DNA from: Streptomyces sp. NBC_01571 | GTDB lineage: Bacteria; Actinomycetota; Actinomycetes; Streptomycetales; Streptomycetaceae | DNA: 64,000 nt | Assembly (NCBI RefSeq): GCF_026339875.1 | Contig: NZ_JAPEPZ010000001.1 | Location: forward strand, 6,634,001-6,698,000 | Reading direction: 5' to 3' | Notes under the pieces: generated by a model | What the model saw: the letters and a program-made list of their open reading frames with translations, nothing else | Told to the model about the DNA's origin: nothing | The model's database searches: none | Shown: positions 1-10,232 of the stretch, in pieces | Position numbering within the stretch: position 1 is the first letter of the stretch | Layout of the letters: each line of letters begins with the position of its first letter | Position numbers and translations under genes: made by a program

Positions 1-531
1 GAGGCGATCAAGCTGCTCGCGGGCATCGGGGAGCCCCTGGTCGGCCGCCTGATGATCTACGACGCCCTGGAGATGCAGTACCGCCAGGTCAAGGTCCGCA
101 AGGACCCGAACTGCGCGGTCTGCGGTGAGAACCCCACCGTCACCGAACTCATCGACTACGAGGCCTTCTGCGGCGTCGTGTCCGAGGAGGCCCAGGAGGC
201 CGCGGCCGGCTCCACGATCACTCCCAAGCAGCTCAAGGAGTGGATCGACGACGGCGAGAACATCGAGATCATCGACGTCCGCGAGATCAACGAGTACGAG
301 ATCGTCTCGATCCCCGGCGCCAAGCTGATCCCGAAGAACGAGTTCCTCATGGGCACCGCCCTGGAGACCCTTCCGCAGGACAAGAAGATCGTCCTGCACT
401 GCAAGACGGGTGTCCGCAGCGCGGAGGTCCTCGCCGTCCTGAAGTCCGCGGGCTTCTCGGACGCGGTGCACGTCGGCGGCGGCGTGATCGGCTGGGTCAA
501 CCAGATCGAACCGGACAAGCCGGTCTACTGA
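1..531 (+). CDS. moeZ: MoeZ-type adenylyltransferase/sulfurtransferase, C-terminal part (gene starts before the window)
   Basis: The last 176 codons of a gene that enters the window in frame 1. MoeZ/MoeB proteins adenylate the C-terminal Gly-Gly of MoaD/ThiS-like sulfur carriers and, with the C-terminal rhodanese domain, transfer sulfur to them for molybdopterin and other sulfur metabolism in the cytosol. The visible part starts in the adenylyltransferase tail, with a CAVCGENPT zinc-type motif. It then has a complete rhodanese domain with the persulfide-forming cysteine in HCKTGVRS (Cys codon at 400-402). The protein ends EPDKPVY. The stop codon lies inside the 13-bp attachment repeat, so the integrated element downstream leaves the reading frame intact. 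A moaE gene lies in the same window at 42842. Family assignment is secure; the symbol follows actinobacterial usage. Confidence 0.9.
   Translation, partial: EAIKLLAGIGEPLVGRLMIYDALEMQYRQVKVRKDPNCAVCGENPTVTELIDYEAFCGVVSEEAQEAAAGSTITPKQLKEWIDDGENIEIIDVREINEYEIVSIPGAKLIPKNEFLMGTALETLPQDKKIVLHCKTGVRSAEVLAVLKSAGFSDAVHVGGGVIGWVNQIEPDKPVY
519..531 (+). repeat. attL core: 13-bp direct repeat at the moeZ stop codon
   Basis: The sequence gccggtctactga recurs exactly at 10220-10232. It encodes the last residues PVY and the TGA of moeZ, so integration by the element's tyrosine recombinase preserves the gene. The flanking bases differ between the two copies (aa versus tt before, aa versus gc after), which sets 13 bp as the identical core. 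Confidence 0.82.
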
Positions 532-800: not shown

Positions 801-1082
801 ATGAGTGAGACTGACGCGCAGGCAGCCGCACAGTGGATGCTGGCGCAGATCACGGATAGCCGTAGTCACGAGCTGTTCCAGATGGACGCAGCGGATCACG
901 TAGCGAAGCACTTTGACCCGGGCCTTACATACGTGAACGACAACGGAAACCTAGCGATCAGCAAGGAAGTCCTGTCAGCTTTCCGCAAGATGAGTGAGGG
1001 GACGGTCATCTGGGAGCGGGGGGCAAGGTACTGGCGCCTGCGCAACGACCGCGACCCGGAAGGTAAGCGACAGGCTGATTGA
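801..1082 (+). CDS. Small DUF6953-like protein, first gene of the element
   Basis: A 93-residue protein of unknown function. The N-terminus (ETDAQAAAQWMLAQI) and the C-terminal block (EVLSAFRKMSEGTVIW, then RYWRLR) match my recollection of the actinobacterial DUF6953 family, whose members begin at the equivalent of the chosen ATG. A longer in-frame start, GTG at 771, would add ten residues (MTQRRYIVVH). A GGAGG at 781-785 is rather far from the ATG, so the start is not settled. The gene looks less GC-rich at third positions than the core genes nearby, consistent with acquired DNA. It stands alone next to attL, facing the non-coding tract. I infer no function. Confidence 0.6.
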   Translation: MSETDAQAAAQWMLAQITDSRSHELFQMDAADHVAKHFDPGLTYVNDNGNLAISKEVLSAFRKMSEGTVIWERGARYWRLRNDRDPEGKRQAD

Positions 1083-1122
1083 AGCGCCGGGCGGACATGA
1101 GAGTCCGGTGAGTGCCCGAGCG

Positions 1123-1245
1123 CGCTTGTCGCTTGTCTTGTCGCTTGTCTTGTCGCTTGTCGGCTCGCAGGTCAGAGCATGGTTCGTGGTCTTCCGGGCT
1201 CCGTCCGCGCCCTGTCGCGACAAGCGACAAGACAAGTGACAAGGA
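1123..1245. repeat. Facing arrays of GCTTGTC and GACAAG heptamers
   Basis: GCTTGTC occurs at 1124, 1131, 1143 and 1155 (spacings 7, 12 and 12). Its reverse complement, GACAAG(C/T), occurs at 1219, 1226, 1231 and 1238. The arrays face each other across about 57 bp and could form a long imperfect hairpin or a symmetric protein-binding site. The role is unknown. Confidence 0.7.
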
Positions 1246-1308
1246 GCGGGGGCGACGCAACGCTCGCGTGTGATGGAGGGCAAGAAGGGGCGGCCTACGG
1301 CCGCGGGC

Positions 1309-1334
1309 CTCTTGGCAGCTCGCTGCGCTCGCGC
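1309..1334 (+). repeat. Left arm of a 26-bp perfect inverted repeat
   Basis: Positions 1309-1334 are the exact reverse complement of 2137-2162. Key sequence: ctcttggcagctcgctgcg. The arms are 802 bp apart and flank most of the non-coding tract. No transposase is encoded between them, so they are not simple IS ends. Confidence 0.75.
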
Positions 1335-1645
1335 GGCCACCACCATCGCGACCGAGGCCGTAGGCGCCCCCAGGGGCCCCGATCCCCCCGTGCGGGGGCT
1401 TCGCCTCACCCAAGGCTCGAACGGCTGCCCACGACCCCACACAGGCGCGGCAAGGCGCCAGCTTCCAGACGCCTCCACGCGCGCGTGCGCGTAGGGCCCC
1501 CTACCCGGAAACCGTGGAAACCAGGAAACCCGCAGGCCAGGGGCGGTTGCGCGGGGTCAACTGACTCTGCCGACTCAACCGGCAGCATCAACCACCACGA
1601 ATCGGGCAGCGTCCAACCCTGCACTGGGCTGGCGGGGACATAAGC

Positions 1646-1680
1646 AAGAGGAGCACGTCCCGGCGCAGGGTGCTCCTCTT
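1646..1680. terminator. Strong 11-bp hairpin in non-coding tract
   Basis: AAGAGGAGCAC (1646-1656) pairs with GTGCTCCTCTT (1670-1680) across a 13-nt loop. The T-rich distal end makes a terminator plausible on the plus strand, and a non-coding RNA hairpin is equally possible. Confidence 0.5.
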
Positions 1681-1847
1681 GGAATGCCTCCCAGGGGCCT
1701 TCCAAGGGGCAGACGGCAGCCAAGGGCGAGTGTCGATTGCTCTGCCGCCCGCGTGGCTAACCGAGGCTCTTCAGAGGGAGAGCCACGTCGGCCACCGCCC
1801 CCCTCCTGAAGAGCCGCCCCTCTCTTACTAGAGAGTTGAGGGGAGAT

Positions 1848-2024
1848 AGCGTCCGCAGCGTCCGCCGGGCACATCTCACCCCCTCTGACCTGCGCGGTTC
1901 CTGCGGACGCTAAACAAAATGTCTAGCGTCCGCCAGCGTCCGCAGCGTCCGGACACGCTCCGCTACTAAAAGCCTCTTTCCGCTGGTCAAGGCGGCTCTT
2001 CAAGGTTGGCGGATTGCGGACGCT
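1848..2024. repeat. Cluster A of AGCGTCCGC nonamers
   Basis: AGCGTCCGC occurs at 1848, 1857, 1925 and 1935, with a near copy at 1944 (last base G). The inverse, GCGGACGCT, occurs at 1903 and 2016. The 1848/1857 copies are directly adjacent. The same nonamer clusters upstream of the excisionase gene (7922-8033). The neighbouring segment around 1871-1913 (ctcacccc, ctct, cctgc, then GCGGACGCTAA) also resembles 7974-8018, so a longer unit was probably duplicated. These are candidate iterons or regulator/recombinase sites. Confidence 0.75.
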
Positions 2025-2136
2025 GACCCGAGCGGGGAGAGCCGAAGACACCACCCGGGGCGGGCGAGGTGGCGTCTTCAACACCTACCTACGGCAGAGG
2101 GCGCAACGGCGCCTGCCGTCGCACGGCGGCCGTCGC

Positions 2137-2162
2137 GCGCGAGCGCAGCGAGCTGCCAAGAG
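2137..2162 (-). repeat. Right arm of the 26-bp inverted repeat
   Basis: Exact reverse complement of 1309-1334 (key sequence gcgcgagcgcagcgagctgc). It lies about 80 bp upstream of the GntR-Nudix operator. Confidence 0.75.
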
Positions 2163-2244
2163 TCGCGCGGCCATATGCCGCTCCGCTCTTCGCCTTGAGG
2201 ACTCTTGAAGGTGTCCCCCGCGGGGGAAGACCTCAACTGACTAC

Positions 2245-2260
2245 GCTGGTGTGCACCAGC
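2245..2260. promoter_or_regulatory. Palindromic operator in front of the GntR-Nudix gene
   Basis: GCTGGTGTGCACCAGC is a near-perfect 16-bp palindrome with one central mismatch pair. It shares CTGGTG..CACCAG with the two operators at 4406-4446. It ends 26 nt before the chosen ATG, where a repressor could block the gene's own transcription. Palindromes of this kind suit GntR-family dimers; that this protein is the binder is inference. Confidence 0.7.
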
Positions 2261-2286
2261 CAACGAATGGGGAGCGTGCTGCGGGG

Positions 2287-3090
2287 ATGGCAGAAACCAA
2301 GACGGCTCGGGTAGAGCGCACGATCCGTGAGTGGGTCGGAGGGGGGAAGCTCTCGCCAGGCGACAAGATGCCGTCCGAGCGCACACTGACGGAGGAACTC
2401 GACATCGGCCGCACCGCCCTGCGGCAGGTGCTCGCGCGGCTCGTAGCGGAAGGCGTGCTGGAGGTGCACGGCCGGAGTTCGTACCGAGTGCCGGCGCCCT
2501 CCCCCACTCAGCGACGCGTGGGCGTCACCTCGGGAGAGCTAAAGCCGTGGCAGATCTACGGCGAGCGGCCTCTGTATGACAACCGCTGGGTCCGCCTCGC
2601 CCTGGTCGACGTCGAGCCGCCGGGCGTGAAGCGCTTTGAGCACCACGTGGTGCGGCTACAGCACGTCGCAGTCACGGCCGTGCTGGACGACCAAGACCGC
2701 GTGCTCATGCTGTGGCGATACCGATTTGTGCCGGATCAATGGGGCTGGGAGCTCCCCGGCGGCATCGTGGACGCGGGCGAGGACGCCCGTACATGCGCCG
2801 CGCGGGAAGTCGAGGAAGAGACGGGCTGGCGCCCTGCCAACCTTGACCACGTCGTCACATATCAACCCATGGTCGGCATGGTGGACTCGCCGCACGAGAT
2901 CTTCGTAGCGCACGGTGCAGAGCATGTAGGCGAGCCAACGGATGCGGAGGAAGCGGGCCGCGTGGAGTGGGTACCGCTCACCGACATCCCCGACCTGATG
3001 GAGCGTGGTCAGCTCATGGGGTCCGGCACTCTCATTGCCCTGCTGCATGTGCTCGCGAACAGGAAGAACGCGTCTACAACCTCTGCGTGA
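2287..3090 (+). CDS. GntR-type DNA-binding domain fused to a Nudix hydrolase
   Basis: A 267-residue fusion. Residues 1-65 are a GntR winged helix (TIREWVGGGKLSPGDKMPS, then TLTEELDIGRTALRQVLARL). Residues about 85-265 are a Nudix domain of ADP-ribose-pyrophosphatase style with a complete Nudix box (GGIVDAGE, then REVEEETGW: the G-x5-E-x7-RE-x2-EE-x-G pattern). Nudix enzymes hydrolyse nucleoside diphosphates linked to other moieties; the substrate here cannot be told. In pSAM2, the repressor KorSA (GntR) and the immunity factor Pif (Nudix) are separate proteins, so this may combine both roles. The ATG at 2287 is chosen over GTG at 2251 because 2251 lies inside the operator palindrome and the domain begins just after 2287. 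The 3' end overlaps the convergent XRE gene by 17 bp. Confidence 0.85.
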   Translation: MAETKTARVERTIREWVGGGKLSPGDKMPSERTLTEELDIGRTALRQVLARLVAEGVLEVHGRSSYRVPAPSPTQRRVGVTSGELKPWQIYGERPLYDNRWVRLALVDVEPPGVKRFEHHVVRLQHVAVTAVLDDQDRVLMLWRYRFVPDQWGWELPGGIVDAGEDARTCAAREVEEETGWRPANLDHVVTYQPMVGMVDSPHEIFVAHGAEHVGEPTDAEEAGRVEWVPLTDIPDLMERGQLMGSGTLIALLHVLANRKNASTTSA

Positions 3091-4210
3091 GCTGATCGAT
3101 CCTGCGGCGATGCCGCGCCGATCCGGTGCGGCTCGCCAACAGGCGCGCGGTCCGCAGGTGCTCTTGCGCCTGGTCGTACTCACCACGCGCGAGGTGAGCC
3201 TGAGCAAGGTCACAGCGGAGTCCGGATTCTGCACGGACGAACGTGGAATCGAGCGAGTCAAGCGCCTGGTAGAGGCTGCCCACCGCGTCGCCATCCCCGA
3301 GCATCGCAAGGGCGTTGCCGCGCCAGCGGGCCAAGTGTGAGCCATTCAGGAAGATGCTCAACATGTCCGGATCTCTGGCTTCGTCGCCGGGCGGCAGCAC
3401 CGACGCGGCCATGTCCAGCGCCCTGCGGCAGTCGTCGGCCAGTTCGGGTCCAGCCTTGGCGCACAGCTCGGCTTCGGCTGCGTATAGCCACGCCTGAAGA
3501 CGCGGAGACATGTGGCCGTCTGCCACCCTACGAGCGTCTCGTACGAGCGCCACGGCCAGTTCCGACCGTCCCGCCTCGCTGAGCACATACGCCTGTTCAG
3601 CCATGGCGTGCGCGAGGTACATGGGCTCTCCGGCTTCCTGCGCTGCACGCTTGCCCAACTCATAATTTCGCCAGGCGCGTTCGACAGCTCCCGCATCCAA
3701 GGCCTGCCAGGCCGCGAGCGTCGCGGCGGCAGCCAGCGCCTGAGCAACCGGCCGGCGGGTGTCAGGGAGGACCGCAAACGTGAGCGCATCTTCGAGGCGG
3801 GCCAGATGGCCCGTCATCTGGTCGACGAGAGCGGCGGCCCCCATCTGCCTGTCCATCGTGCGGAACAGCTCGGTCTGATCAGTGAAGGTCTTCACCATGC
3901 TCAGGCCAACGCTCCGAGCCGAATCGATTCGGCTGATCAGTTCGTCGTAGCCACCCGCCAGCGGCGGCCCGGCCACCTGCGCCTCCCCAAGCAACTCCCC
4001 ATCGGTCAGGCCGAGGAGAGGCCGGAGGATCGCGGCAAACCTCGCTGAGATCTTGCGCCTGCCGTTCTCCCATTCGGAGACGTAGACGCGGAGGCTGGCG
4101 GTCGTCGGGACGTCAAGCGCGTGCTGACGGGCGTATCGCTCGATCTCCCGCACGAGACGTTCCTGAGACCAGCCGCGAGCATTTCGAGCGCCCCTCAGCC
4201 GTTCACTCAC
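3074..4210 (-). CDS. XRE-family transcriptional regulator with TPR-like C-terminal region
   Basis: A 378-residue protein. Residues 1-75 form a helix-turn-helix of the Cro/C1 type (SERLRGARNARGWSQERLV, then VYVSEWENGRRKISARF). The remaining 300 residues are alanine-rich helical pairs resembling tetratricopeptide repeats (for example AMAEQAYVLSEAGRSELAV and DLAQAHLARGEYDQAQEHL), as in peptide- or protein-sensing regulators. GTG at 4210 is chosen because AGGGG lies 8 nt upstream; the open frame extends to a TTG at 4231. It is convergent with the GntR-Nudix gene (17-bp overlap) and divergent from the sigma-like operon. Two TTAACA direct repeats, 12 bp apart (4284 and 4296), lie in its upstream region and may be its site. 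It probably controls the element's quiescent state. Confidence 0.82.
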   Translation of the reverse strand: MSERLRGARNARGWSQERLVREIERYARQHALDVPTTASLRVYVSEWENGRRKISARFAAILRPLLGLTDGELLGEAQVAGPPLAGGYDELISRIDSARSVGLSMVKTFTDQTELFRTMDRQMGAAALVDQMTGHLARLEDALTFAVLPDTRRPVAQALAAAATLAAWQALDAGAVERAWRNYELGKRAAQEAGEPMYLAHAMAEQAYVLSEAGRSELAVALVRDARRVADGHMSPRLQAWLYAAEAELCAKAGPELADDCRRALDMAASVLPPGDEARDPDMLSIFLNGSHLARWRGNALAMLGDGDAVGSLYQALDSLDSTFVRAESGLRCDLAQAHLARGEYDQAQEHLRTARLLASRTGSARHRRRIDQLTQRL

Positions 4211-4283
4211 GCATATCACCCCTAGTCGCAAAGCTGTTCGGGCCTCACAACAGGATGCACTAAATCCCGCAGGTCGGAAGGGG

Positions 4284-4301
4284 TTAACAACACTCTTAAC
4301 A
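4284..4301. promoter_or_regulatory. TTAACA direct repeats between divergent element genes
   Basis: TTAACA at 4284-4289 and 4296-4301, 12 bp apart, in a locally AT-richer stretch of the XRE/sigma-like intergenic region. It could be part of a promoter or an operator for the XRE regulator. Not proven. Confidence 0.35.
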
Positions 4302-4405
4302 CCCCAGCCATTAGGGCCTGTTGGCTACCGGCACCCCCCTTCACGGGCGTTCCCTCGGAGCATGCAGCAACCGCGAACCCAACGGAATCTGCGCGCACCC
4401 TCTTG

Positions 4406-4446
4406 CATCTGGTGCGCACCAGATGGAAACTACTGGTGCGCACCAG
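4406..4446. promoter_or_regulatory. Twin palindromic operators upstream of the sigma-like operon
   Basis: Site 1 (4406-4425) is CATCTGGTGCGCACCAGATG, a perfect 20-bp palindrome. Site 2 (4433-4446) is CTGGTGCGCACCAG, a perfect 14-bp palindrome. Their centres are 24 bp apart. Both share the core of the site before the GntR-Nudix gene (2245-2260). One regulator probably controls both transcription units, as KorSA does for korSA and pra in pSAM2; the identity of the binder is inference. Confidence 0.75.
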
Positions 4447-4565
4447 ATTGGAACGCAAAAGCGGGCCATGACGCACATACGTCGCCATGGCCCGACACAG
4501 CAAGGAGCGGCCACCTACCGCCAAGCAGTCAGCCGCTCCCTGACCCTCGAAGGGGCATATCCATC

Positions 4566-5474
4566 ATGCCTGGAACCAAGACGGAAAGTGCAGTTGGCCA
4601 GTCGACGTCTCGGGGCAACGGTCCCGGCGGGCGGAAGCTGGCGCCGGGCGAGATCATCGCTCTCACGCCGAAGCAGTCGGAGCGGTTGGCTGAGCTGTAC
4701 GCCGAGTGGGGCGGGAGCCGTCTGGACCGGTACGCGGCCCGCAAGCTCATGAACCACGGCATGAGCCGCGCTCAAGCCTGGGAACTGGCCGAGGACATCA
4801 CGCAGAACGTGTGGGTGGGCATCGCCAGGGAGACCACCAAGCCGCTCATGGCGGCCGACGAACTGAGCGAGGACGAACGCCGGATCTTCCTGTTCGGCAG
4901 GGTCAAGACCGAGGTTCACCAGTACTTCCGCCTCGGGTCGACATCGGAGTACCCCGTCGACTTCACGGACCCGGTGACCTGCAACCTCGTGTGCCCGGTG
5001 CTGCCCGGTGGCTGCGCGCGCACGGCGTTGCCCGCCTATCTGGATGCCATGGTGTCCAAGCTGCCGGAGCGTGAGCGCGAAGCCCTGTTGCTGCGCTTGG
5101 AGGGCATGCCCATGCGGCGGCTGGCCGAACGCGTCGGTGTCAGCTACCCGACCGCCAATCGGCTCGTGGAAACGGCCCTGCTGCTGATCCAGATCGACAA
5201 CCCCGAGTTGTCGGCGGCCCCCGTGTCGCTGGAGTCGCTCCCCCAGTGGGAGCGCGAGGAACTGGCGCACATGAGCACGGCGCAGCGTGCCGCCCTGCTG
5301 CGGATGGATGAGAGCTCCCGCCGGGCCCTGCTGCTGCACGTGGGCCAGGGACTCAATATCACCGAGGTGGCGCGGCGGTTGAACGTGCCGCGCTATCAGG
5401 TGCTTCCGGTGCTGGGAGCCTGCGCGACCGCACTGCGCTCGCTGACCGCCGACGACATGGAGCAGGCGGCATGA
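4566..5474 (+). CDS. Sigma-70-like regulator with two C-terminal HTH modules
   Basis: A 302-residue protein. Residues about 45-120 resemble sigma region 2 (AWELAEDITQNVWVGIARE, like the AEDLVQETF of ECF factors). Residues about 165-205 resemble region 4 (LPEREREALLLRLEGMPMRR, then AERVGVSYPTANRLV). A second region-4-like repeat follows near the end (ALLLHVGQGLNITEVARRLN). ATG at 4566 is preceded by AGGGG 10 nt upstream; longer frames would run through the operators. It is the first gene of a coupled operon, with its TGA overlapping the next ATG. By position behind the operators it may be the element's activator (the role of pra in pSAM2). Whether it truly replaces a sigma factor is not shown. 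Confidence 0.72.
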   Translation: MPGTKTESAVGQSTSRGNGPGGRKLAPGEIIALTPKQSERLAELYAEWGGSRLDRYAARKLMNHGMSRAQAWELAEDITQNVWVGIARETTKPLMAADELSEDERRIFLFGRVKTEVHQYFRLGSTSEYPVDFTDPVTCNLVCPVLPGGCARTALPAYLDAMVSKLPEREREALLLRLEGMPMRRLAERVGVSYPTANRLVETALLLIQIDNPELSAAPVSLESLPQWEREELAHMSTAQRAALLRMDESSRRALLLHVGQGLNITEVARRLNVPRYQVLPVLGACATALRSLTADDMEQAA

Positions 5475-5611
5475 GCGACGACGTCAACTTCGACGACCGG
5501 ATGTTCATGGAGAGCCAGGCCGTCTACCAGCGAATCCTGGACGGCCAGGTCACCGACGTCGTGGCCGAACTGATGGACGCTCAGCTCCGGGCCTCGGAGG
5601 AATCGGAATGA
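5471..5611 (+). CDS. 46-residue acidic protein coupled to the sigma-like gene
   Basis: A small ORF starting MSDDVNFDDRMFMESQAVYQ and ending RASEESE. It overlaps the previous stop by ATGA (5471-5474) and the next start by ATGA (5608-5611). This double coupling and the absence of any gap make it a genuine gene. It is strongly acidic and probably helical. I do not recognise a family; it could be a partner of the neighbouring sigma-like or HNH protein. Confidence 0.7.
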   Translation: MSDDVNFDDRMFMESQAVYQRILDGQVTDVVAELMDAQLRASEESE

Positions 5612-6156
5612 GCCGCGTCCACCCCATCAACTCCGCCAAACGACGCGTGCGGAAGGAACAGCTTGCACGCCGCCACGGGCAGCGCTGCGCCTACTGCCGC
5701 CGCCCGTTCGCCGACCTGAGCGAAGCCACCCTCGACCACATCGCACCTCAGTCGCTGTGGCGGTCATGGTCGGTCACCTCGCTCATGTTGGCCTGCATCG
5801 ACTGCAACCAGGCCAAGGCCGACCGGCTCCCGTTCTCGATCGCCCTGCTCTTGCTGGCGTGGGCCGACCCGACCGCGCCGATCGCCGCACCGGTCGACTG
5901 GCCCGTGCTGGCCCGACTCGCACACGCCAACCAGTCGGCCTTCGCGGCGGTGTGGTCGCCCGACCCGATCGCCCTACGGTCTACGGCTGACCTGCGTGAC
6001 GAGCCGCGTCACACCCGACGTCACGGCACCCCGCAGGGAGCCCGGTCGGTCTGTCGTGAGGGCTTCCGTCGACCCTCGATCCGACCCGACTACCTCCGCG
6101 CGCCCCGACCGGTTCGGACGTGCGCGGGCCCGACTGGAGAGGCGGTGTTCGCGTGA
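5608..6156 (+). CDS. HNH endonuclease
   Basis: A 182-residue protein. The HNH fold is clear at residues about 25-75: paired cysteines (CAYCRRPF), the catalytic DH in ATLDHIAPQS, and LMLACIDCNQAKADRLP with the second CxxC-type pair and the N-x3-K end of the motif. The C-terminal 60 residues are arginine-rich without recognisable structure. It overlaps the preceding gene by ATGA and the following one by GTGA, so it belongs to the element's operon. HNH enzymes in mobile elements cut DNA in packaging, homing, defence or replication. Lying beside a replication ATPase, a role in replication initiation or anti-phage activity is possible but unproved. Confidence 0.85.
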   Translation: MSRVHPINSAKRRVRKEQLARRHGQRCAYCRRPFADLSEATLDHIAPQSLWRSWSVTSLMLACIDCNQAKADRLPFSIALLLLAWADPTAPIAAPVDWPVLARLAHANQSAFAAVWSPDPIALRSTADLRDEPRHTRRHGTPQGARSVCREGFRRPSIRPDYLRAPRPVRTCAGPTGEAVFA

Positions 6157-7862
6157 CGTCCGTGAACGGTGCGCTGAACGGATCGACCCGGCCCGTGAAC
6201 AGCGGGAACGGCGCCGTGAACGCTGAATCGACCCGGGCCGTGAACGCGCCGAACGGTTCCGTGAACGGCGCGGCCCGTCGCGTGAACACCCGTGAACACC
6301 TGCCGTCCGGCCCGATCGGATCGACCGGCCACCGTACCGAGCGCGGCGACGAGGGAGGAAAGAAGCCGCCCGCCGCCGCCCGGATCGTGGCTATGGCGCG
6401 CGAGCAGTACCGGTTCGTCACCTCCCCGGACGGCCGCCCCTACGCGGTCGCCATCGACGGCCCCAACACCGCGCTGCCGCTGCGGAACAAGGGTGGACTG
6501 CGTCAGCGCCTGGCCAAGCAGTTCGCCTACGACTACCCCGGCGAGGTGGCCTCACAGTCCGCGCTCGCGGACGCCATGACGGTGCTGGAAGGCATCGCGG
6601 AAGACACCGACCCCGTTCCGGTGCACCTGCGGGTGGGACGCGACCCGGCCGGCGGAATCGTCGTCGACCTCGGCAGCACCGACGGCCGCGCGGTCGTCGT
6701 CACCGCAACCGGCTGGAACATCGTCGACCGGGCCCCGGTGCTCTTCCGGCGCTCCGGAGCCATGGCCCCGATGCCCCCGCCCGTGCTGGACGGCGACGGC
6801 CTGGCCAAGCTGCACGCCCTGCTGAACATGGATCAGCCCACCTTTCACCAGCTTGTCGCGTGGCTGGTCGCGGCCTGGATTCCCGACATCCCGCACCCGG
6901 CGCTGGTGTGCAAGGGCGAGCAGGGCACGGGCAAGTCCAAGGCCGCGCAGATGTTCATCAACCTCGTCGACCCCTCACCTGCCTCCAAGCGCAGCCAGCC
7001 ACGCGATGAGAAGGCGTGGTCGCGGCAGGCGTTCGCCTCATGGGCTCTGTGCCTGGACAACGTCAGCACGATCCCGCCGTGGCTCTCGGACACCCTGTGC
7101 AAAGCCGTGACGGGTGACGGGGTCGTCGACCGGGCTTTGTACACCGATGACGACGTGGTGGTGCTCACCTTCAAGCGGGTGCTCGCGCTGACCACGATCG
7201 ACGCGGGAGCTCTCGCGGGCGACCTCGCCGAACGCGTCCTGTTGCTGGACTTGCAGCTCATCGACTCCGGTCGGCGCCGCTCTGAAGAGGAGTTGGACGC
7301 CACCTTCGCGGCCGTACGGCCTGCCGTGCTCGGGGCCCTGTTCGATGTGCTGGCCTGCGTCCTCGCGGTCCTGCCGTCGGTGCGGCTGGAGACCATGCCG
7401 CGCATGGCGGACTTCGCTCGTGTCCTCGCCGCGGTCGACGAGACCCAGGGCTGGAACACCCTTGGCGACTACCTTGCGACCTCGGAGAACGTCGCCACGG
7501 ACGCGTTGGAGGGTGACCCGTTCGCCATGGCCATCGCTCGGCTGGTCGACCAGGCCGGTAGCTGGCAGGGCACTGCCGGACAGCTCTTGGAGGCACTGCC
7601 CGCGCCGTTGGTCCGGCCGCCGAACTGGCCCAAGGACCCCACCCGCGCGAGCGGACGCGTCAAGCGCCTCGCCCCGCTGCTCCGCTCGATCGGGATCACC
7701 GTTGATGATACGCAGCGTAGTCGGGACCGGACCCGGCACAAGCTCCTGACGCTCGCACGCGCGGCCCCCGAGGACGAGACAGCGTCCGCACCCGAACAGG
7801 GCCCTCTGTGGCCGGAGGTGGCCCCGCCGGGGCGCCTTGAACCTCCATCTGACCAGTACTGA
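6153..7862 (+). CDS. Replication-type P-loop ATPase (SF3/D5-like helicase)
   Basis: A 569-residue protein. Residues 1-50 are low-complexity Asn/Val-rich sequence encoded by the cgtgaac repeats. An ATPase core follows: Walker A CKGEQGTGKSKA (about 252-263), a Walker B-like hydrophobic run ending in D (WALCLDNVS, about 294-302) and a sensor-like ALTTIDAG (about 345). This spacing is that of phage and plasmid replicative helicases rather than AAA proteases. No primase-polymerase active site is visible. GTG at 6153 overlaps the HNH stop (GTGA). It probably unwinds or initiates at the element's origin, which may lie in its own 5' end. Unlike pSAM2 there is no RepSA-type rolling-circle initiator. 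Confidence 0.75.
   Translation: MTSVNGALNGSTRPVNSGNGAVNAESTRAVNAPNGSVNGAARRVNTREHLPSGPIGSTGHRTERGDEGGKKPPAAARIVAMAREQYRFVTSPDGRPYAVAIDGPNTALPLRNKGGLRQRLAKQFAYDYPGEVASQSALADAMTVLEGIAEDTDPVPVHLRVGRDPAGGIVVDLGSTDGRAVVVTATGWNIVDRAPVLFRRSGAMAPMPPPVLDGDGLAKLHALLNMDQPTFHQLVAWLVAAWIPDIPHPALVCKGEQGTGKSKAAQMFINLVDPSPASKRSQPRDEKAWSRQAFASWALCLDNVSTIPPWLSDTLCKAVTGDGVVDRALYTDDDVVVLTFKRVLALTTIDAGALAGDLAERVLLLDLQLIDSGRRRSEEELDATFAAVRPAVLGALFDVLACVLAVLPSVRLETMPRMADFARVLAAVDETQGWNTLGDYLATSENVATDALEGDPFAMAIARLVDQAGSWQGTAGQLLEALPAPLVRPPNWPKDPTRASGRVKRLAPLLRSIGITVDDTQRSRDRTRHKLLTLARAAPEDETASAPEQGPLWPEVAPPGRLEPPSDQY
6161..6297 (+). repeat. Seven phased cgtgaac heptamers inside the ATPase gene
   Basis: cgtgaac starts at 6161, 6194, 6215, 6239, 6260, 6281 and 6291, with a near copy gctgaac at 6173. 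Most intervals are 21 bp (others 12, 24 and 10), close to whole helical turns. They encode the recurrent Val-Asn pairs at the N-terminus. This looks like an iteron array, a candidate replication origin within the initiator gene; a purely protein-level repeat is the alternative. Confidence 0.65.
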
Positions 7863-7921
7863 CGTAGCCGGAATGCCAGCCGGGCCGGGCCGCACACCAG
7901 CGGCCCGGACACGTCGAAGCT

Positions 7922-8033
7922 GCGGACGCTACAGCCGTCCAGTCCCCGCAGCGTCCGCACTAGCGTCCGCACTTCTCACCCGCTCTGGCCTGCACAGATT
8001 CGACCGTGCGGACGCTAAGGAGCTGCGGACGCT
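7922..8033. repeat. Cluster B of AGCGTCCGC nonamers upstream of the excisionase gene
   Basis: GCGGACGCT occurs at 7922, 8008 and 8025; AGCGTCCGC at 7950 and 7962. The interval 7974-8018 resembles 1871-1913 in cluster A. The cluster fills most of the 250-bp gap between the ATPase and excisionase genes, where it could serve as iterons, an operator or recombinase accessory sites. Confidence 0.75.
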
Positions 8034-8112
8034 GCGATACACCAACTCTCTAGGACCGCGACCGGCATCACTCCCACGCACCGCACGACGGACACGAGGA
8101 GTCACCACAGCC

Positions 8113-8355
8113 ATGGCCACCACCGAAGAGCCGACCGACCCGCGCGCCCTCCTGCGCGGCGGCCTGCCGGACCGCTACCTCACCCCCGAAGACCTGGTCA
8201 CGATGTTCAGCCTCCCGAGCGTCGAAACCGTCTACCAGTGGCGCCGCAAGCGCATCGGCCCCACCGGGTTCCGCGTCGGCCGCTACCTCCGCTTCAACCC
8301 CGCCGCCGTACGGGCCTGGGAAGCGGAACTGACCGCCCTCGACGACGCGGCCTGA
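8113..8355 (+). CDS. Excisionase-like MerR-type helix-turn-helix protein
   Basis: An 80-residue protein with the HTH_17 pattern of excisionases: YLTPEDLVTMFSLPSVETVY, then QWRRKRIGPTGFRVGRYLRF and a C-terminal VRAWEAEL. GAGGAG 11 nt before the ATG supports the start. In integrative elements such proteins bend the attachment region and steer the integrase to excision. It lies 585 bp upstream of the integrase and just after nonamer cluster B. A hairpin follows the stop, so it may be transcribed separately from the integrase. Confidence 0.85.
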   Translation: MATTEEPTDPRALLRGGLPDRYLTPEDLVTMFSLPSVETVYQWRRKRIGPTGFRVGRYLRFNPAAVRAWEAELTALDDAA

Positions 8356-8360
8356 CCGGT

Positions 8361-8395
8361 CCGGCCCGGCGGGGAGCCACCACCCGCCGGGCCGG
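8361..8395. terminator. Hairpin after the excisionase gene
   Basis: CCGGCCCGGCGGG (8361-8373) pairs with CCCGCCGGGCCGG (8383-8395), a 13-bp stem with a 9-nt loop. There is no T-run, as is common for Streptomyces terminators. Confidence 0.6.
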
Positions 8396-8489
8396 GGAGG
8401 CGGGGAGAACTCCCCAACCACCTCCCCGGCCCGCATCCCCCGCACTGATCAGCGCAGACACCGCTTCGGGGAGGCGGGGAGGCGTCACC
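8394..8489 (+). repeat. First copy of a 96-bp dyad-rich direct repeat before the integrase gene
   Basis: The copy holds GGGGAGAACTCCCC (8402-8415), an outer dyad GGGGAGG/CCTCCCC (8394-8400 and 8421-8427), the box tgatcagcgcaga, and a further ggggaggcggggag. The second copy at 8598-8693 keeps every dyad with matched base changes. Possible role: binding region for integrase, excisionase or another element protein. Confidence 0.7.
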
Positions 8490-8597
8490 TCAACCCCTCG
8501 AACGGCACCCCTGGAAGGCGTCCGCACTCCCTGTCTCTACCTCCCCGCCCGGCCCCGACAGACACCGCGAACGACAGGGAGGCACGGCCCGCCGGCT

Positions 8598-8693
8598 GAG
8601 GGAGGCAGGGAGAACTCCCTCACCGCCTCCCTGACCCTCCTCCCTCCATCTGATCAGCGCAGATGACCTCTCAGGGAGGCAGGGAGGCACACC
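8598..8693 (+). repeat. Second copy of the 96-bp dyad-rich repeat
   Basis: The counterpart dyads are AGGGAGAACTCCCT (8607-8620) and AGGGAGG/CCTCCCT (8599-8605 and 8626-8632). G-C outer pairs of copy 1 are A-T here on both sides, so symmetry is conserved although the sequence has changed. tgatcagcgcaga is identical in both. Confidence 0.7.
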
Positions 8694-8771
8694 CCCAGCA
8701 CCCCCGAGAACCCCCTCCGGAAGCCATCCGACAGCCCCCGTCCCAGCCTCCCTGAGAGCCCGCGCACAGGT

Positions 8772-8805
8772 GCTACCGGTAGCAACCCCACCCGCTACCG
8801 GTAGC
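8772..8805. repeat. Two GCTACCGGTAGC palindromes upstream of the integrase gene
   Basis: The perfect 12-bp palindrome GCTACCGGTAGC occurs at 8772-8783 and 8794-8805, 22 bp apart (about two helical turns). A half site gctaccg follows near 8915, just before the integrase ribosome site. This is a likely operator pair for integrase expression; the binder is unknown. Confidence 0.65.
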
Positions 8806-8940
8806 AACCCCGCTAGCACCCCAAACCCCCGATGATCAGGCCCGTAGCGAGTAGCGGGCCCGGCCCAGCACACCCCAAAACCGGGCCGACGGCGCCCTTA
8901 GGGCCCCGCCCGGCCTGCTACCGAGAAGGGATCAGCCCCT

Positions 8941-10176
8941 ATGGCTGGCCACATCCAAGACCGCTGGTACAAGACCGAAACCAACGCTGACGGCAGGACC
9001 GCCCGCGTCAAGAGTGACCGCCACGGCACCGGCATGCGGTACCGCGCCCGGTACGTCGGCCCCGACGGCTCGGAGAAGTCCAAGAGCTTCCCCGACGGAC
9101 AGAAGCGCGTTGCTGAGAAGTGGCTGTCTGCGATCGAGGCCGACATGACGCGCGGCCAGTACATCGACCCCGCCGCCGGACGCCTCACCGTCCGCCAGCA
9201 CGCCGACCGCTGGCTCAACTCCCTGACCGGGGACCCTGGCACATTCGTTGGGACTGAGCGCCGGATTCGCTTGCACGTCCTGCCGTACCTGGGTAGCCGC
9301 CCGTTGGGATCGCTCCGGCCAGTCCACATTCGCGAGTGGCTGCGGGAGTTGGAGGACGGCGGGGTAGCACCCGCCTACCAGCGGGTCATTTTCGCGAACT
9401 TGAGCACCATGCTCACGGCCGCTGTCGATGACCTGGTGATCCCGAGTAACCCGTGCCGCTCGAACTCAGTGAAGATCCCCAAGTTGGACCCCCGACGGGT
9501 CGTCCCGTGGGAGCGGGAGCGGGTGTTCGCCGTTCGGGCCGCTCTCGTCGAGGAGTATCGCGCCACGGTGGATCTAGCGAGCGGCTGCGGGATGCGGCAG
9601 GGCGAAGTACTGGGACTGGCCGTCGAGGACATCGACTTCACAGAAGACGTGGTGCACGTCATCCGGCAGGTGAAGCTGATCCGGAACCGGCCGGTCTTTG
9701 CTGTCCCCAAGAACGGCAAGCCCCGCGCCGTTCCGCTCCCGGCGTCTGTCGCTCGCCGCCTGAGGGAGCACCTCGCACAGCACCCGCCGGCGAGCGTGAC
9801 GCTGCCATGGCGCGCGGTTGACGGCAGGCCCGTCACGGCGACGCTGCTCTTCCACCGGCGCGAGGTCGAACCGGTGAACCGCAACGACTTCAACCGGTGG
9901 GCGTGGCGCCCGGCCCTAGCGTCCGCAGGCGTGCCCTACGGACGCGAGAACGGGATGCACGCGCTGAGGCACTTCTACGCTTCCGTGCTGTTGGATGCAG
10001 GCGAGAGCATTAAGGCGCTGTCGGAGTACTTGGGGCACCACGACCCCGGATTCACGCTCCGCACGTACACCCACCTCATGCCGAGCAGTAGGGCCCGGAC
10101 GCGGTCGGCGGTTGACCGGGTGTTCGATGACTCACCGGAGGGCGATGACGGCCCCACGACGGCCCAAGTGGCCTGA
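8941..10176 (+). CDS. int: Tyrosine recombinase (integrase)
   Basis: A 411-residue integrase. Residues 1-65 are an arm-binding-type domain (RYRARYVGPDGSEKSKSF), about 75-175 the SAM-like core-binding domain (TVRQHADRWLN, then GTERRIRLHVLPYLG), and about 190-390 the catalytic domain. The catalytic residues can be read: Arg in GCGMRQGEVLGL, the HxxR box in MHALRHFYAS, His in YLGHHDP, and the nucleophile Tyr in RTYTHLM. A GAAGGGA ribosome site precedes the ATG. It would recombine the 13-bp core at the moeZ 3' end. Its stop lies 43 nt before attR. An AGCGTCCGC nonamer occurs within the gene at 9918. Confidence 0.95.
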   Translation: MAGHIQDRWYKTETNADGRTARVKSDRHGTGMRYRARYVGPDGSEKSKSFPDGQKRVAEKWLSAIEADMTRGQYIDPAAGRLTVRQHADRWLNSLTGDPGTFVGTERRIRLHVLPYLGSRPLGSLRPVHIREWLRELEDGGVAPAYQRVIFANLSTMLTAAVDDLVIPSNPCRSNSVKIPKLDPRRVVPWERERVFAVRAALVEEYRATVDLASGCGMRQGEVLGLAVEDIDFTEDVVHVIRQVKLIRNRPVFAVPKNGKPRAVPLPASVARRLREHLAQHPPASVTLPWRAVDGRPVTATLLFHRREVEPVNRNDFNRWAWRPALASAGVPYGRENGMHALRHFYASVLLDAGESIKALSEYLGHHDPGFTLRTYTHLMPSSRARTRSAVDRVFDDSPEGDDGPTTAQVA

Positions 10177-10219: not shown

Positions 10220-10232
10220 GCCGGTCTACTGA
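10220..10232 (+). repeat. attR core: second copy of the 13-bp direct repeat
   Basis: Exact copy of 519-531 (gccggtctactga). The DNA to its right, with a strong hairpin, is the presumed native sequence downstream of moeZ. Confidence 0.82.

Follow-up and report, generated by a model that had tools for sequence, protein, structure and literature searches.

In a 64,000-nucleotide stretch of the Streptomyces sp. NBC_01571 genome (the window, meaning this whole stretch), a single gene encodes a GntR winged helix followed by a Nudix hydrolase domain. Comparative analysis suggests that a large family of actinomycete integrative elements is governed by this GntR–Nudix fusion, a central repressor that also controls its own gene. 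The explanation that, taken as a whole, probably accounts best for the data is a repressor resembling KorSA of the element pSAM2, with a ligand-binding and ligand-cleaving Nudix domain as its effector domain. Judged part by part, it is very likely that the fusion acts as the repressor of a nearby promoter bearing two operator copies (O2/O3), fairly likely that the Nudix domain is its effector domain, and possible, if somewhat doubtful, that the protein hydrolyzes its own inducer. A KorSA-like role is strongly supported by comparison, because the fusion lies in an integrative-element context, its operator pair is conserved, and GntR proteins with a UTRA domain stand at the same place in three kindred loci. 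The first-pass annotation of this DNA had proposed a "one-protein KorSA-Pif", Pif being the Nudix immunity protein of pSAM2; the KorSA half of that proposal agrees with the comparisons below, while the protein is better labeled a KorSA-like repressor with Nudix in place of UTRA. The role of the Nudix domain is the interesting part of the fusion.

Both domains are complete in one 267-residue chain, as had been read from the translation alone, and both score above their Pfam cut-offs (Table 1). The PF00392 match places the protein in the GntR family; no UTRA domain was found in it by Pfam at E ≤ 0.001, a NUDIX domain being found instead, so that the fusion would work like KorSA and yet is not filed as HutC. 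The ATG at 2287 is the better start, because the GTG at 2251 that opens the longer frame in the list of open reading frames (ORFs) falls inside the palindrome at 2246–2259. In the AlphaFold2 model (mean predicted local distance difference test score, pLDDT, 85.3; predicted template modeling score, pTM, 0.60), both domains are confident and the linker at residues 73–82 is loose. Structure comparison, for which model residues 81–263 were taken with the winged helix outside, matched ADP-ribose pyrophosphatases and related enzymes (M. tuberculosis Rv1700, Bdellovibrio NudF, T. thermophilus) over residues of about 85–263, a wider span than the 126–236 given by Pfam. The fusion shares with them the fold, the Nudix box and the catalytic loop glutamate, whereas they have no DNA-binding domain and are about 20–26% identical to it in the best rows. 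NrtR was absent among the structure matches listed, which excludes nothing. The strict Nudix box is kept in 119 of the best 120 of 3477 homologues, and the glutamates of the Nudix loop are invariant in 50 of 50.

The 3477 homologues were returned by a protein search at E ≤ 1e-3 and come mostly from Streptomyces where named. GntR and NUDIX Pfam domains are both present in all of the best 120; the joining is therefore not a chance event, and the number of homologues rules out that the fusion is a rarity. Scanning genome contigs confirmed 124 stretches; the 80 best of these (69–93% identity) form the locus set used below. Homologues of FtsK/TraB (56 loci), replication (49) or integrase (24) proteins adjoin the fusion in 62 of the 64 loci that could be tested, i.e., those whose downstream sequence reaches 10.5 kb or more; the context counts are lower bounds, since they were obtained with a few seed proteins. 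The remaining two (L074, L079) have no transfer, replication or integrase homologue. Neighbor families checked by Pfam in ten representatives include FtsK_SpoIIIE, RepSA, Prim-Pol, DUF2637 and DUF6284, and two were without a family. Further GntR–Nudix fusions in integrated elements, which the first-pass annotation had suggested looking for, are thus numerous, and the contrary case that it named, a fusion found mainly outside mobile elements, was rejected. The GntR–Nudix family is a real, common and well-defined regulator family: it occurs in 29 of 199 sampled genomes of the genus (including one broken copy and one remnant), and order-wide 60 of 293 genomes match the fusion at E ≤ 1e-60, six of these matches covering the Nudix part only and one of the six being a split form. 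In a 27.8-kb plasmid record of S. formicae (L089), the fusion is accompanied by genes for FtsK, an SpdD-like protein, a replication initiator and an integrase; the record apparently consists of two head-to-tail copies of one actinomycete integrative and conjugative element (AICE), as a dimer or an assembly artefact.

The candidate operator TGGTGCGCACCA is a GT-N4-AC palindrome and, by sequence comparison, fits the GT-Nx-AC form of GntR-family operators. The palindromes noticed at first reading are real, with six matches in the window at up to two mismatches against 1.16 expected. Across the 80 loci the exact 12-mer occurs in 153 copies, all of them between the fusion and the downstream operon and none outside the fusion module. 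An exact pair lies over the promoter facing this operon in 75 loci, spaced start to start by 24 bp (49 loci), 25 bp (23), 22 bp (2) or 21 bp (1); an exact copy is joined by a single-mismatch one in L015, L031 and L045, and no copy was found in L025 and L074, the former lacking a pair because its contig ends. When the window is included (76 sequences), a TTG precedes the first copy by 7 bases in 50, by 8 in 25 and by 6 in one, at −7 mostly as TTGACT, TTGCAT or TTGACA, and the pair would cover a promoter whose −35 is fair but whose −10 is poor. Ahead of the fusion gene itself, a site matching TGGTGNNCACCA with no more than one mismatch occurs within 130 bp in 45 of the 80 loci, as against 0.43% of base shuffles; allowing two mismatches gives 58 loci, 43 of them with the site at −46. 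This own-gene site usually reads TGGTACGCACCA, perhaps a weaker predicted site. The marks of KorSA-type repressors, namely an AICE location facing transfer genes and a site ahead of the repressor's own gene in addition to that ahead of the controlled operon, are thus found at the level of the family.

The operator pair also accompanies the fusion across genomes. In the 199 genomes of the genus, with the pair defined as 22–25 bp start to start and the fusion as a match at E ≤ 1e-60, the pair is present in 25 of 29 fusion genomes and in 0 of 170 fusion-free genomes (Fisher p = 6e-28, uncorrected for kinship); the reversed control pattern was found in none of the genomes listed. RepSA occurs in 178 of the 199 genomes, so that 150 genomes with RepSA and without the fusion lack the pair. 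In 26 cases the pair lies 2020–2123 bp from the fusion start. One genome (G137, C1:7881855 and 7903349) carries two differing fusion copies 21 kb apart, 69% and 61% identical to the query, which share one identical 37-bp operator pair.

Kindred elements indicate what can stand at the place of the fusion. Twenty RepSA loci were fetched from fusion-free genomes, fusion genomes and short contigs being passed over; a GntR protein is present in 17 of them and the palindrome in none of the 20. Seven of the 17 GntR carriers were scanned by Pfam, four with UTRA and three without. Three kindred loci (L217–L219) show the order postop_A–FtsK–RepSA with a facing GntR protein, and UTRA scores above the cut-off in all three, barely so in two; postop_A is also found in 21 of the 80 fusion loci. 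The simplest reading is that the effector domain has been swapped at one regulatory position. Other arrangements also occur. In L196, GntR and Nudix are encoded by two overlapping genes and the operator pair is kept; 36 short GntR-only proteins, that of L196 included, resemble its GntR half, which makes a mere sequencing slip unlikely. In L195, two GntR domains precede the Nudix domain, FtsK and RepSA are kept, and the palindrome is absent (one case), with CTAGACGTCTAG at the corresponding promoter. L194, of another family at 62% identity, has two single-mismatch sites, and L197 has a Nudix protein without GntR, convergent with an XRE-TPR gene among transposase-like ORFs, and no site. In the homologue P0184, an HTH_17 domain takes the place where GntR would be. 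In these few cases the operator site appears to follow the GntR part. Two further candidates for domain swaps (G172, G279) were rejected, since both look like remnants or truncated copies.

Among known systems, KorSA and the KorSA-like GntR/HutC repressors of AICEs (e.g., SCO3932) share the winged helix and its position facing transfer genes. According to the relevant part of PMC8584621, KorSA binds to the promoters of its own gene and of pra. The fusion differs from this type in its Nudix effector domain (UTRA in KorSA), in the XRE-TPR gene between it and the operon and perhaps in its operator pair TGGTGCGCACCA. In the window, the first gene after the pair encodes a protein with a sigma-70 region 4 match. 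NrtR and AraR likewise join Nudix to a DNA-binding domain, with Nudix likely serving as ligand sensor and dimer maker; the order is reversed, however, with an N-terminal Nudix and a C-terminal helix-turn-helix (HTH) in NrtR, and in contrast to both the fusion has a GntR-type winged helix, an intact catalytic box and, in the loci compared, mobile-element genes around it instead of NAD or sugar genes. Pif, likened here by description alone, is also a Nudix protein on an AICE, but the portion of PMC3218068 that treats it gives it as the product of its own gene, whereas the Nudix domain here lies within the repressor chain. MocR regulators, as partly described in PMC4494728, similarly couple GntR to an enzyme-fold effector domain, of the aminotransferase fold rather than Nudix. 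The GntR domain of phiC31 gp26 (L193:37114-37638) is 62% identical to residues 5–70 of the fusion, and gp26 has no Nudix domain; as a possible holder of the same operator this phage was rejected, as its 41.5-kb genome has no TGGTGYRCACCA site within one mismatch. The imp locus of SLP1 (impA/impC) comprises two coupled genes under joint autoregulation that keep the element integrated. The split form in L196 resembles it, which offers a lead rather than a test.

Among the papers listed in searches of the open-licence PubMed Central (PMC) literature, none on a GntR–Nudix repressor was found. Closest to it, PMC9513070 notes for Streptomyces ICE01 a single gene that combines an HTH with a nudix domain ("data not shown", perhaps cI-related), PMC11706625 lists GntR, XRE and NUDIX among AICE parts, and genes named reg/xre, nud and mdp are treated in PMC3364876 and PMC3218068. 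The examined parts of PMC13118837 and PMC9503650 contain no GntR–Nudix protein.

An XRE-TPR homologue is convergent to the fusion in all 80 loci, shortened in some. The host chromosome carries a Nudix gene whose product is 44% identical to the Nudix part of the fusion, directly after an NsdA-family regulator (405 bits). Host-type Nudix occurs at E ≤ 1e-50 in 22 of 31 genomes, and an NsdA-family regulator stands beside it in 21 of 25 fetched loci, the others being L176, L180, L182 and L183; at L091:13477-15462 such an XRE-TPR regulator lies upstream of the stand-alone host Nudix gene. Host and element regulators are dissimilar by BLASTP (best E 0.09) and are linked by the NsdA-family profile only. 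Neighboring nud and xre genes are also described for other AICEs in part of PMC3218068. Judged from these sequences, the pairing of an NsdA-type regulator with Nudix recurs in two settings, elements and hosts. A locus at 2.59 Mb of the same genome was rejected as a separate korSA/pif pair, as it is this host pair of NsdA-family regulator and Nudix; no palindrome within one mismatch was found in the 20 kb fetched around it.

Comparison shows the membership in elements, the link between operator and fusion, the GntR–UTRA proteins of the three loci and the intact active-site residues, and from these we infer DNA binding, repression, dimerization, ligand, catalysis and resetting. We hypothesize that the GntR domain binds TGGTGCGCACCA at two adjacent sites on the promoter that serves the operon on the far side of the XRE-TPR gene, one site after the −35 and the other past the likely −10, and in many members also binds the additional weaker site ahead of the fusion's own gene, which would keep the integrated element silent. 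The Nudix domain, in UTRA's position, probably pairs the subunits. Its probable ligand is a nucleoside-diphosphate-linked metabolite, with ADP-ribose or a related compound the likeliest candidate, and the bound metabolite would loosen the repressor's hold on DNA. Because the active site is complete, the domain may also cleave the metabolite, and the switch would then reset as the metabolite falls. A bolder version, which we regard as speculative, places the fusion, as repressor of a widespread class of Streptomyces integrative elements, in a new subfamily of GntR proteins whose sensor is an active enzyme: it would read and destroy an ADP-ribose-like metabolite, reset itself and tie excision and conjugation to the NAD+/ADP-ribose state of the cell, DNA damage or NAD-consuming defense being example states and the convergent XRE-TPR protein a fixed partner. 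The same Nudix would then have been reshuffled with other DNA-binding parts, as two GntR domains in L195, HTH_17 in P0184 and separate genes in L196.

Several observations weigh against the KorSA-like explanation or limit its reach. The 80 loci are close relatives, and the counts ignore kinship. At the −10 the match is poor: 26 of the 50 sequences with TTG at −7 show an A...T form at 17-bp spacing. Of the 80 loci, 35 have no site within one mismatch ahead of the fusion's own gene. Four fusion genomes lack the strict pair: in G073 internal stops break the fusion, G172 retains just a remnant of it, the pair of G002 is spaced by 21 bp, and in G197 one exact site lies near the one of its two fusion copies that was examined. 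A single homologue of the 120 (P0065) carries E178K in the Nudix box. The fold leaves the substrate unsettled, because fold and loop glutamate are common to nucleoside-diphosphate-sugar hydrolases too. Finally, the target of the repressor in the window's own element would not be classical transfer, as Pfam showed neither FtsK/TraB nor a known replication initiator (RepSA/Prim-Pol) in the nine ORFs covered from 801 to 10176, overlapping and small ORFs lying outside the scan.

Two alternatives share the repressor half with the preferred reading and differ over the Nudix domain, so that the likelihoods given to them are not meant to add up. If Nudix were only an NrtR-like dimerization and ligand-sensing module, catalysis would be incidental or absent in the cell; we give this a chance clearly below even. 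Nudix is indeed a sensor in NrtR and AraR, ADP-ribose frees NrtR from DNA (as passages of PMC6800001 and PMC4666351 state), and the lysine of E178K in P0065 corresponds to the K of the MsNrtR motif RQUXEKXDU (same part of PMC6800001). Yet according to these passages MsNrtR is inactive and its motif degenerate (PMC6800001) and BtAraR has no catalytic residues (PMC4666351), unlike the present family with its nearly invariant box and its invariant loop glutamates. The first-pass reading, in which GntR represses while Nudix acts as a conjugal immunity factor blocking a second copy, seems unlikely. It draws on the conjugal immunity conferred by Pif and on the Nudix genes that AICEs often carry (both from part of PMC3218068), and the retained catalytic box and the two-gene form in L196 with its 36 short relatives would suit it as well. 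Genomes with two copies give no exclusion signal, however (2 of 199 against 2.2 expected, a weak test), and Nudix of the fusion's kind occurs in just 2 of the 20 fusion-free RepSA loci within the fetched stretch, where a distant Nudix could escape, so the fusion is not usually replaced by a GntR protein paired with such a Nudix.

The repressor half faces doubts of its own. An XRE-TPR gene accompanies the fusion in every one of the 80 loci, with the operator pair directly ahead of that gene. Which of the two proteins reads the pair can therefore not be told from their co-occurrence, a further point against the preferred explanation. That the pair belongs to the XRE-TPR regulator, with GntR–Nudix doing something else, is nevertheless improbable: the site has the GntR form and recurs ahead of the fusion's own gene, and it is absent from L195 and L197 (two cases), where GntR is different or missing, despite an XRE-TPR homologue, itself divergent there too. 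Very improbable is an ordinary host metabolic regulator that merely lies in an element. The related host Nudix beside an NsdA-family regulator would fit it, but it is contradicted by the transfer, replication or integrase genes beside nearly all testable relatives, and the exact 12-mers of the 80 loci (as distinct from whole host genomes) are confined to the interval between fusion and operon.

What makes an AICE leave dormancy is poorly known, and the part of PMC8584621 concerned gives the effector of KorSA as unidentified. With a recognizable Nudix as effector domain, the search for an effector would narrow to nucleoside-diphosphate compounds, and the dormancy question could be put to the test using a single protein and three mapped DNA sites. 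Given the frequency of the fusion in the genus, a result would apply widely.

In the window, the fusion is carried by an integrative element of 9.7 kb that sits in the 3′ end of moeZ, as concluded from its 13-bp flanking repeat and from empty sites in relatives. The moeZ end is present in 21 of 21 genomes searched; in all 11 fetched relatives, the window's own locus excluded, moeZ is followed within about 200 bp by sequence resembling the right flank, free of the element. In L100 the right-flank match starts precisely at the repeat, one base of which is different in that locus. The integrase, the attachment repeats and the empty site in relatives are all marks of an AICE, but with no FtsK/TraB and no known replication initiator among the ORFs scanned the element is not a classical AICE. 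It bears an AICE repressor module and may rely on another element for transfer. As a known plasmid it was rejected, matches in the plasmid collection (near mode) being pieces of 1–2% of the element. Its sigma-like first gene recurs in one of the 80 loci (L001), which points to one control module joined to different operons. The 580-residue ORF is a possible replication ATPase; it has an 83% match in L001 and 35–57% matches in seven more of the 80 loci, and is about 35% like a family of ATPase-like ORFs of other loci. The excisionase-like protein is the C-terminal part of the ORF at 7837–8355, with its start picked by eye.

Table 1. Features of the GntR–Nudix fusion and of the integrative element that carries it (window coordinates).
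Feature	Position	Strand	Basis and remarks
GntR–Nudix fusion, likely repressor	2287..3090 (ATG to stop)	+	267 aa; ORF translation, Pfam, homologues, model
GntR winged-helix domain, residues 6–68	2302..2490	+	PF00392, 58.4 bits (cut-off 27)
Nudix domain, residues 126–236 by Pfam	2662..2994	+	PF00293 NUDIX, 75.6 bits (cut-off 21.1)
Nudix box, residues 159–181	2761..2829	+	GX5EX7REUXEEXGU, catalytic glutamates present; read from translation
Operator O1, CTGGTGTGCACCAG	2246..2259	.	About 40 bp ahead of fusion start; autoregulation inferred
Promoter-like stretch with operator pair O2/O3	4403..4446	+	TTGCAT, CTGGTGCGCACCAG at 4409–4422, CTGGTGCGCACCAG at 4433–4446
XRE-TPR regulator, NsdA family, convergent with fusion	3074..4231	-	NCBIfam NF053720, 147.4 bits; 17-bp overlap
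Attachment repeat copy 1, GCCGGTCTACTGA	519..531	+	3′ end and stop codon of host moeZ-like (rhodanese) gene; 13-bp exact repeat
Attachment repeat copy 2, GCCGGTCTACTGA	10220..10232	+	Right end of element
DUF6953 protein, 93 aa	801..1082	+	PF22266, 90.6 bits
Protein with sigma-70 region 4 match, 302 aa	4566..5474	+	PF08281, 58.9 bits; first gene after O2/O3
HNH endonuclease-like protein, 182 aa	5608..6156	+	PF01844/PF14279
580-aa ORF	6120..7862	+	Walker-A-like motif by eye; no family above cut-off; true start possibly further in
Excisionase-like HTH_17 protein	8113..8355	+	PF12728, 27.9 bits (cut-off 27); phrog_66 excisionase
Tyrosine integrase, 411 aa	8941..10176	+	PF00589, 72.8 bits; PF14659; phrog_1

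Three repeat structures were also observed in the element. At 1125–1243, overlapping direct copies of CTTGTCGCTTGT face an inverted copy of the run 55 bp further on, and this array could be an origin or a termination site. To the left of the fusion, a 49-nt inverted repeat (1287–1335 and 2136–2184) is 90% complementary, with its arms 800 bp apart. Between the excisionase-like gene and the integrase gene lie two direct 117-nt copies, at 8367–8483 and 8572–8688, which are 75% identical.
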